Below, in pieces: positions 37,746 to 40,778 of a DNA stretch of 64,000 nucleotides. The stretch's first letter is position 1; every line of letters starts with the position of its first letter. The notes under the pieces were generated by a model. It worked only from the letters and a program-made list of their open reading frames with translations. It was not told the origin of the DNA and ran no database searches. Both the position numbers and the translations under genes were made by a program. Source of the stretch: Terriglobia bacterium (GTDB lineage Bacteria; Acidobacteriota; Terriglobia; JAIQFV01); the NCBI GenBank assembly GCA_020072965.1, contig JAIQFY010000024.1, positions 1 through 64,000 of the forward strand. Direction: 5' to 3'.

Positions 37746-39080
37746 ATGAAAATCCTCGTGATTGGCAGTGGTGGACGCGAGCATGCGCTGGTATGGAAAC
37801 TGGCGCAGTCAAAGAGAGTCAACAAAATCTTCTGCGTTCCGGGGAATGCAGGAATCGCCGGAGAACCGAAGACCCGGTGCCTGACGCTGGATCCCGCAGG
37901 GGACCTTGACGCCATCCGCCAGTTTGCGCTGCGTGAAAAGATCGATCTGGTTGTGGTAGGTCCGGAAGTACCTCTTGCCGGCGGGATTGTCGACCTGTTT
38001 GACGGGACCGGTGTGAAGATTATTGGCCCGCGCCGTCAGGCCGCCCAGCTCGAATCCTCAAAGATTTTTGCCAAGCAGTTCATGTCGAACCAGGGCATTC
38101 CCACTGCTGAATTTTTCGTTTGTGACAGCGCTGACCAGGCCCTGGATTTTGTCAAGCGATCGAGTTATGACTATCCGGTGGTCATCAAAGCCGATGGACT
38201 GGCTGCGGGAAAGGGTGTTGTCCTGGCGAAGGACTATTCCCATGCCGAGACCACCATTCTCGAGTTCATGACGGAGAAGGTGTTTGGTGAGGCAGGTTCT
38301 CGAATTATTGTTGAAGAATGTCTGAGAGGCCGGGAGTGCTCGTTCATGGTGTTTAGCGATGGAGAGCATTACCAGCCGATGGTTCCCTCCCAGGACCATA
38401 AGCGCGTGTATGATAACGACAGCGGTCCGAACACAGGAGGCATGGGAGCCTTTAGTGACGATGCCCTGCTCACCGCTGAGATGAGGACTACCATCCTCCG
38501 GTCCATCGTCGAACCCACGCTTCGAGGCATGAGTGGAGAGGGAACCCCTTTTCGCGGTATTCTCTATTGTGGCCTGATGCTGACTCCCCAGGGGCCCAAG
38601 ACTTTGGAGTTTAATTGCCGCTTTGGAGATCCCGAAACTCAACCAGTTCTGATGCGGATGAAGACTGATCTGCTCGATGTCTTTGAGGCCCTCCTCGAGA
38701 ACCGCCTCCATCAGCTCTCCCTCGAATGGTCACCCGATCCCGCCGTCTGTGTAGTGCTGGCTAGCGGCGGATATCCCGGCAAATTCGATAATGGAAAACC
38801 CATCTCAGGACTGGCAGAAGTCAGCCGTATGAAGGACGTGAAGGTGTTTCATGGAGGCACCCGAGCTGCGACTCAGGCCAATCGAGTGGGAAGAGAGAGC
38901 CCATTTCAAACTGCAGGGGGGCGCGTCCTGGGGGTGACTGCCCGGGGCCCGGATCTGCCTTCCGCCGCCGCACGTGCTTATGAAGCCTGCTCAAAAATTG
39001 ATTTTCAAGGGATGCATTACCGTCGCGATATCGGCGTTCGTCAGATCGCGCGGAACGCCGGACCCGGGGAGGCGCCCTAG
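37746..39080 (+). CDS. purD: Phosphoribosylamine-glycine ligase
   Basis: This 444-aa ATP-grasp enzyme makes GAR in the second step of purine synthesis. Motifs are ILVIGSGGREHALVWKL at the start, DYPVVIKADGLAAGKGV, SFMVFSDGEHYQPMVPSQDHKR, GPNTGGMGAFS and LEFNCRFGDPETQPVL. The start at 37746 coincides with the conserved N-terminus. The 15 C-terminal residues extend past the usual end. No other pur gene is adjacent. Confidence 0.96.
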   Translation: MKILVIGSGGREHALVWKLAQSKRVNKIFCVPGNAGIAGEPKTRCLTLDPAGDLDAIRQFALREKIDLVVVGPEVPLAGGIVDLFDGTGVKIIGPRRQAAQLESSKIFAKQFMSNQGIPTAEFFVCDSADQALDFVKRSSYDYPVVIKADGLAAGKGVVLAKDYSHAETTILEFMTEKVFGEAGSRIIVEECLRGRECSFMVFSDGEHYQPMVPSQDHKRVYDNDSGPNTGGMGAFSDDALLTAEMRTTILRSIVEPTLRGMSGEGTPFRGILYCGLMLTPQGPKTLEFNCRFGDPETQPVLMRMKTDLLDVFEALLENRLHQLSLEWSPDPAVCVVLASGGYPGKFDNGKPISGLAEVSRMKDVKVFHGGTRAATQANRVGRESPFQTAGGRVLGVTARGPDLPSAAARAYEACSKIDFQGMHYRRDIGVRQIARNAGPGEAP

Positions 39081-39182: not shown

Positions 39183-40778
39183 ATGTCGAATCCTCAACCC
39201 ATTATGGAAGTTACTACCGACAAACCCAAGGTGACCCTGCGGAATTATTTCCAGCGCCCGCTTGATTCCAGCGTGGCAGCGGCCCGGACGTGCTATTCCC
39301 CTCGCGTCATCGGCGCCGAGGAGATCAGCGAAGAACAACGAACCAGCATCTCTCAACTTACCTTCGATGCGGGTCACCACACCGTCTATCAGCATCCGCA
39401 TTTCGAGTTCGGACTGGAGAACATCTCCCGGCAATTTGTGTGGAATTTCTTACACAGCTACCCATTTTACAACTCCGAGCAATCCTCCCAACGCTTCGTG
39501 CGGCTGGATGAAATCCGCGCGTTCGTTCCTCCCCTGGACGAGTCGAACCGGCAGATTTACACCCGGGCCGTCACCCAGGCCTGGGACGCATACCGCGATC
39601 TGACTGCAATCCTCAAGAAGGACACCTTCGAGATCCTCGGCGAGGTGTTCAAGCTTCATGACACGTCCAGCGACAAAAAGAAGAAAAAGGTGAAGCGGGA
39701 GTCCGAGAAAAAGGCCATTGAGGTGGCCCGCTATGTCATTCCCATCGCCGCCTTCACCTCCATGGTGCATACCATTTCAGGGATTACTCTGCATCGGCTC
39801 AAGCGCTTGATGCATTCCGGGGACACGCCGTTCGAGACCACCCAGGTCATCAGTGAAATGGTGGAATGTGTGAAGCGAGTCGACCCCAATTTTTTCGAGA
39901 AAATTGGCGATCCACCCATGGACGCGCAGCAAATCCCCGAATTCAATTTTCGCTCTCTCAACCTGCCGGCCGGCCCGCTGGGGTTTGCCCGAATTGACGT
40001 CTCCGTTGAAACGGCGGTGAAGGAATTTGATGCTGATCTGGGCGGGAGAATCTCAAAGCTGGTGGATCACACACGGGATGCGGAAAGGACCGTGGCCAAT
40101 GCCCTGCGTTATGCCATGGGCATTTCCCGCCGCGAGATGAATGACGCCATGGCCATCGATGCCATGCTCAATCCCGCCAAGAACCGGTACCGGCTTGACA
40201 AGCTGAACCTCACCTTCCAGGTCCCCTTGATGAAACCCCTCAATCACGCTGCCTACACCTTCATCAAGAAGATCTCGCATACCGCCGACTCACAAGATCA
40301 GCGCCACCGCATGGTCCCGGCATCGCGCCCGATGATGATGTTCACCGATATGCGTTCGCCGGATTACGTCACTCCGCGTCTGATCTCCGCCAATCCCGGG
40401 GCCCGGGCCGTGTTCGAGCAGACGATGGAGATGCTGTGGTCAGCGAAAAACAAACTCCTCGATAGCGGAGTGCCCACCGAGTTTGCCATGTATCTGCTCC
40501 CCAATGCCAAGGCGCTTCGCTTCTCCGAGTCAGGATCGCTTCTCTACCTCCTGCACAAGTGGACCATGCGCACCTGCTTCAATGCCCAGGATGAAATCTA
40601 CGAAGCTTCAATGCAGGAACTGGAGCAGGTCCGTGAGGTACATCCCCTCCTGGCCAAGTACATTGGTCCCCCGTGCGTTGTCCGGGTGGGTCAAATCCTG
40701 CCGATCTGCACTGAAGGCCAGCATTTCTGCGGCGTCAAGGTATGGGAAAGGTTTCCAAACGTCGAAAGACGCCTGTGA
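39183..40778 (+). CDS. Tandem ThyX-like protein (FAD-dependent thymidylate synthase family)
   Basis: This 531-aa protein has two ThyX-like halves joined by a Lys-rich linker (about 163-176). The first half keeps HPHFEFGLENISRQFVW and a NSEQSSQRFVR stretch (97-107) but has no RHR before it. The second half keeps RHR (374-376) in QDQRHRMVPASRPM but lacks the following NEQSxRY. Canonical ThyX is about 220-250 aa with RHRxxSxNExSxRY in one piece. Annotation pipelines call similar proteins ThyX; catalytic ability is unproven. Confidence 0.75.
   Translation: MSNPQPIMEVTTDKPKVTLRNYFQRPLDSSVAAARTCYSPRVIGAEEISEEQRTSISQLTFDAGHHTVYQHPHFEFGLENISRQFVWNFLHSYPFYNSEQSSQRFVRLDEIRAFVPPLDESNRQIYTRAVTQAWDAYRDLTAILKKDTFEILGEVFKLHDTSSDKKKKKVKRESEKKAIEVARYVIPIAAFTSMVHTISGITLHRLKRLMHSGDTPFETTQVISEMVECVKRVDPNFFEKIGDPPMDAQQIPEFNFRSLNLPAGPLGFARIDVSVETAVKEFDADLGGRISKLVDHTRDAERTVANALRYAMGISRREMNDAMAIDAMLNPAKNRYRLDKLNLTFQVPLMKPLNHAAYTFIKKISHTADSQDQRHRMVPASRPMMMFTDMRSPDYVTPRLISANPGARAVFEQTMEMLWSAKNKLLDSGVPTEFAMYLLPNAKALRFSESGSLLYLLHKWTMRTCFNAQDEIYEASMQELEQVREVHPLLAKYIGPPCVVRVGQILPICTEGQHFCGVKVWERFPNVERRL

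Follow-up and report, generated by a model that had tools for sequence, protein, structure and literature searches.

Within the window, the whole 64,000-nucleotide stretch of soil-bacterium DNA analysed here, positions 39183-40778 of the forward strand encode a single protein of 531 aa, read from an ATG start to a TGA stop in a frame free of internal stops. Pfam matching on the genome placed two Thy1 domains in this tandem ThyX gene, an N-terminal one carrying the substrate loop (39237..39890, + strand) and a C-terminal one carrying RHR (40056..40646, + strand). The upstream neighbor is purD, coding for phosphoribosylamine-glycine ligase and recognized by its Pfam GARS domains (37746..39080, + strand), and it ends 102 bases before the start of the ThyX gene. 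A conserved operon of purD and tandem ThyX was rejected, as purD was the neighbor only in the nearest relative (L003) among 80 relatives.

Canonical ThyX is a single domain of ∼220 aa that forms a homotetramer with four equivalent sites and bears a contiguous RHR...S-x-R-Y signature. The window protein is a member of the ThyX superfamily by its Pfam Thy1 (PF02511) scores, 180 bits for the whole protein and 95.8 and 93.7 bits for the halves alone, at a curated cut-off of 24.8 bits. With NCBIfam TIGR02170 (thyX), the whole protein scored 96.3 bits and passed the equivalog cut-off of 87.9, and each half alone remained below it at 55.5 and 50.1 bits. The contiguous signature was not found within one domain of the window protein. 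An AlphaFold2 model of the whole protein reached a mean pLDDT of 79.3 and a pTM of 0.81, and over 199 residues its segment 288-531 matched M. tuberculosis ThyX (Z 14.2, rmsd 2.0 Å). A model of the N-half alone (residues 1-262, mean pLDDT 76.2) matched the same structure with Z 14.3 over 202 residues (rmsd 5.0 Å). These AlphaFold models, of moderate quality and less precise for the N-half, indicate that both halves have the ThyX fold of canonical enzymes (T. maritima TM0449, M. tuberculosis ThyX; PF02511, TIGR02170). The atypical ThyX of Corynebacterium glutamicum (3fnn, 3ge9) has this fold too and is a close structural match to both halves, but it is a single domain and, according to the PDB title, its organism depends on ThyA.

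Because each half alone resembles a broken ThyX that scores below the TIGR02170 cut-off, the gene could be taken for a decayed or chimeric one, or for an assembly artefact. Compared with the nearest relative, however, each half was ∼82-84% identical, with dN of ∼0.11 in each (dS was 1.8 for the C-half and saturated for the N-half), and the split is therefore not due to chance or sequencing error. In addition, more than 100 relatives from different phyla conserve the full length. This family conservation refutes decay, chimerism and artefact, to which we assign practically no probability.

Division of the active-site residues between the halves

The N-halves and C-halves of tandem proteins and 14 single-domain Acidobacteriota ThyX were aligned by MAFFT with T. 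maritima (Tm) ThyX. The 50 tandem proteins compared span three tandem types, and residues of the window type were counted in 81 proteins, a set that includes the 80 relatives from the relative search. The N-half sequence FLHSYPFYNSEQSSQRF contains S-x-R-[YF] and no RHR, and the C-half sequence SQDQRHRMVPASRPMMMF contains RHR and no S-x-R-Y; the corresponding stretches read ...ISRQFVWNFLHSYPFYNSEQSSQRFVRL... in the N-half and ...KKISHTADSQDQRHRMVPASRPMMMF... in the C-half.

The N-half retains the equivalents of Tm H53, T55, S88, R90, and R147 as H65, T67, S102, R104, and R183. The first two lie in H65-H66-T67 (39375..39383, + strand; 81/81 window-type relatives). S102 and R104, both present in 81/81, belong to the active-site or substrate loop NSEQSSQRF at residues 97-105 (39471..39497, + strand), where F105 is the equivalent of Tm Y91 and Q100 aligns with Tm E86. 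R183 (39729..39731, + strand; 81/81 N-halves) corresponds also to PolB R166'. Tm Q75, R78, H79, R80, and R174 are missing from this half, being replaced by F89, S92, Y93, P94, and M210, the last of which marks the lost arginine at 39810..39812 (+ strand). The C-half retains exactly these residues: Q371 (Tm Q75) and R374-H375-R376 (R78-H79-R80) within QDQRHR at residues 371-376 (40293..40310, + strand; 81/81), and R463, the equivalent of the dUMP-activating R174 (40569..40571, + strand; 81/81). Its S88, R90, and R147 positions are now M384, M386, and M436. Position 105 is Y in 79 of the 81 window-type proteins and F in two, the window protein included; every other retained residue is invariant across the set.

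The same partition was seen beyond the window type. Both signature parts stood in one domain in 14/14 single-domain ThyX. Among the tandem proteins, S88/R90/[YF]91 was present in 50/50 N-halves and RHR in 0/50, RHR was present in 50/50 C-halves and S88/R90/Y91 in 0/50, and the Tm R147 equivalent occurred in N-halves only. Seven tandem loci that had escaped the first profile (six aligned, one read directly) and a Parabacteroides plasmid tandem followed the same rule, and no exception was found among 58 tandem proteins from Acidobacteriota, Myxococcota, Thermomicrobium, Parabacteroides, and a gut contig. The initial annotation had described a first half with NSEQSSQRF and no RHR and a second half with RHR and no NEQSxRY, each incomplete singly and complete together. 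This description holds for the window protein, and among the 50 tandem proteins no half carries both parts after alignment (0/50 N-halves, 0/50 C-halves). The split reaches further than was described, with H53, T55, and R147 on one side and Q75 and R174 on the other.

Some positions vary in detail. At the Tm R174 site of some distant-type N-halves, the alignment puts an R only by opening a gap, and the ungapped reading of AQLKRHR-type N-halves gives residues other than R. The H53 position, kept in most other tandems, is occupied by D in the RDLQRHR type. In the window protein, the classical FAD contacts Tm N163 and R165 are substituted in both halves (S199/I201 and S452/L454), so that the flavin contacts must differ in detail.

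Subunit roles and probable composite sites

In PBCV-1 ThyX with an inhibitor in the dUMP pocket, Gln75 and Arg182 come from monomer A, and Ser88 and Gln89 from monomer B (PMC3498832); we judged Arg182 to be the equivalent of Tm R174. In PolB, the UMP/dUMP methylase of polyoxin biosynthesis, the substrate is contacted by Arg82, His83, Arg86, and Arg193 (unprimed) and by Glu94', Ser96', Arg98', and Arg166' from the other monomer (PMC5003785). Constant offsets of 8 in the signature region and 19 in the later part, used in place of a PolB alignment, turn these into Tm 74, 75, R78, and R174 versus E86, S88, R90, and R147. PolB has the ThyX fold and likewise shares out its substrate contacts between two subunits (PMC5003785); it differs from the window protein as a single-domain homotetramer with UMP as its natural substrate. 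H53 in canonical ThyX is supplied by a third monomer (PMC11940539), R174 activates dUMP (PMC8316439), and consumption of the flavin intermediate is strongly slowed in the Tm mutants S88A, R90A, and Y91A (PMC8316439).

Judging by the aligned positions, the residue sets kept in the C-half and the N-half are the sets found on two different subunits around one dUMP, and the substrate contacts named in solved complexes were all present only when the N- and C-halves were combined. Since the retained sets match the two-subunit assignments, a site made by a C-half and an N-half would be complete, and all other pairings would miss several residues. We infer that the gene product is very probably a functional flavin-dependent thymidylate synthase, a covalent pseudo-heterodimer that would convert dUMP, CH2-THF, and NADPH to dTMP. 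Each canonical dUMP site draws on two different subunits and takes a histidine from a third one; in the tandem protein, these subunit roles would be fixed, one per half. The C-half would give the Q75/R78-H79-R80 helix and R174 for dUMP binding and activation and for flavin contact, and the N-half would give the flexible loop with S88/R90/Y91, together with R147 and the H53/T55 element. Fusion of subunits and loss of complementary residue sets would thus leave only composite N+C sites. The pseudo-dimer with one composite site that was proposed initially finds good support in a division of residues exactly as between two subunits, but a single site probably counts too few for each assembled enzyme, because two tandem chains in a tetramer-like body would complete two composite N+C sites of the four; the two reciprocal sites, stripped of residues, should be inactive. 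Taken as a whole, the window protein resembles canonical ThyX in its combined catalytic residues, in its presumed FAD/dUMP/folate chemistry and in its use without ThyA or FolA, and differs from it by two domains per chain, a divided signature and an expected two sites per two chains.

An enzyme that is not half-of-sites could be imagined if each half had swapped new residues for the lost ones and all four sites were active. The N-half indeed carries invariant new residues at the former RHR (H91, P94, F95, Y96, and N97), as does the C-half just past RHR (P379 and R382-P383), but conserved replacements of this kind may equally be structural. Moreover, the reciprocal sites would be without equivalents of R174, R90, S88, and R147 all at once: in the window type, every C-half has L/V/I/M at the R147 position, and no arginine occurs in the R174 region of the N-halves. 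Four active sites are therefore unlikely, and the tandem protein is most likely a pseudo-heterodimer with half the usual sites that works as a thymidylate synthase.

Thymidylate synthases in the genome and in two phyla

The window genome (5.9 Mb, estimated 100% complete) gave no match to ThyA, no second ThyX gene by Pfam matching and no match to DHFR of the PF00186 family. A genome without DHFR is a common state among ThyX users. The check for another thymidylate synthase that the initial annotation had called for thus left the tandem protein as the only recognizable one, and its genomic context is that of a thymidylate synthase in a ThyA-less genome. The nearest relative, L003, has in its genome a ThyA-like match that contains three in-frame stops (G149:C17:33955-34491), possibly a dead ThyA-family gene.

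Among 149 Acidobacteriota genomes, ThyX was present in 114, a strong ThyA match in 29 and both in none (Fisher p 2.5e-25, a test that ignores shared ancestry). Two Thy1 matches were found in 77/114 of the ThyX genomes, and ∼75 were counted as tandem, G045 and G097 being left out as they look like split or interrupted single genes. Ten further Acidobacteriota genomes had weak ThyA-like matches only. The 78 Myxococcota genomes comprised 49 with ThyX (∼32 tandem), 27 with ThyA and two with both (G158 and G161; Fisher p 4e-14, likewise ignoring shared ancestry). ThyX, mostly tandem, and ThyA are almost mutually exclusive in the two phyla. In one Acidobacteriota genus, four genomes (G037, G085, G113, and G122) had no ThyX match, and their ThyA-like matches were all weak (E 1e-6 to 1e-12). 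The Myxococcota genome G166 has two ThyX genes, each with a single domain and each on a contig of its own (G166:C55 and G166:C3).

These distributions bear on another explanation, in which dTMP has another source and the tandem protein is a flavoenzyme with a different substrate or role, for instance a non-catalytic regulator or a PolB-like UMP/nucleotide methylase. PolB is a case of the ThyX fold put to another use (PMC5003785), and the C. glutamicum ThyX is not needed for dTMP according to a PDB title. A third-type tandem lies on a Parabacteroides plasmid, though this group normally uses ThyA (in Bacteroides, ThyA is present in 53/55 genomes; table in PMC5954106). However, such a role is hard to reconcile with a window genome that has no other recognizable thymidylate synthase, and with two phyla in which tandem ThyX nearly excludes ThyA. 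We consider it very unlikely, and the new flavin-dependent role once suggested for the window protein is disfavored by the same observations, as tandem ThyX takes the place of ThyA in both phyla.

Spread and history of the tandem form

The tandem layout was found in Acidobacteriota, Myxococcota, Thermomicrobium roseum, Parabacteroides, and a gut contig. Tandem ThyX of the window, AQLKRHR and RDLQRHR types, such as WP_012643046.1 (T. roseum) and WP_009276148.1 (Parabacteroides), are alike in layout and partition, and their identity to the window protein falls from 81% (L003) to ∼21% (gut contig L084); the T. roseum protein, encoded on a megaplasmid, shares 38.6%. The function as such is not new, because RefSeq already lists the Thermomicrobium and Parabacteroides tandems under the name “FAD-dependent thymidylate synthase.” In the open-access full-text literature, no publication on tandem or fused ThyX or on the split architecture was found. 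The possibility raised at the outset, that a known family has this layout with an assigned function, is thus true in part: the form is widespread and named in RefSeq, and the split itself was absent from that literature. Tandem ThyX is apparently a widespread enzyme form that has been little described. The Chlamydia ThyX, we presume, may be double-length as well.

Several single loci deserve mention. In L084 (MT835736.1, 1996-4191), an unannotated human-gut contig that is filed as bacteriophage and may be bacterial, the tandem ThyX diverges from an adjoining thymidylate kinase gene, a placement in favor of a thymidylate synthase role. On a Parabacteroides distasonis plasmid (L148, 2258-5893), the third-type tandem ThyX lies directly upstream of genes for an ATP-binding protein and a HIT-domain protein, and it may have another role in this group. 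Long in-frame insertions interrupt the ThyX genes in L104 (G009:C2) and at G097:C1:4377543-4379384; the insert in L104, which resembles an intein, lies in the N-half of a tandem ThyX and stops immediately ahead of SVAEHA. Two scans of viral contigs detected no tandem ThyX. The ThyX of Sulfolobus and Acidianus viruses matched the C-half only, and the two that were inspected are annotated single ThyX of ∼250 aa.

A tree of the halves, built on 220 columns after removal of the active-site columns, gave four groups, namely window-type N, window-type C, other-type N, and other-type C. On this tree, the N-halves require two changes and so do the C-halves, and a single origin of the N-halves or of the C-halves was neither rejected (AU p 0.40 and 0.47) nor demonstrated. 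It is conceivable, though rather doubtful, that tandem ThyX has at least two origins, one for the window type and one for the AQLKRHR/RDLQRHR types, with the N-half keeping the loop and the C-half keeping RHR/R174 in each case. If true, this would be a convergent conversion of a homotetramer to an obligate half-of-sites pseudo-heterotetramer.

This double-length ThyX is strongly conserved, with catalytic residues divided as between canonical subunits, and all the indirect evidence points to ThyX-like function. As it lacks the single-domain signature, it is most suitably classed as a variant inside the ThyX superfamily. First, the tandem form would escape annotation by motif, and likewise inhibitor design, wherever RHR...S-x-R-Y is expected within a single domain. 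Second, the four identical interlocked sites of canonical ThyX do not allow one subunit role to be mutated alone; in the tandem form, the roles are separate on one chain, and single-role mutations could be used to test which subunit donates each group and whether the sites cooperate. Third, tandem ThyX is a natural example of an essential enzyme whose halves, once fused, underwent complementary losses, and in many Acidobacteriota and Myxococcota it is apparently the only thymidylate synthase.
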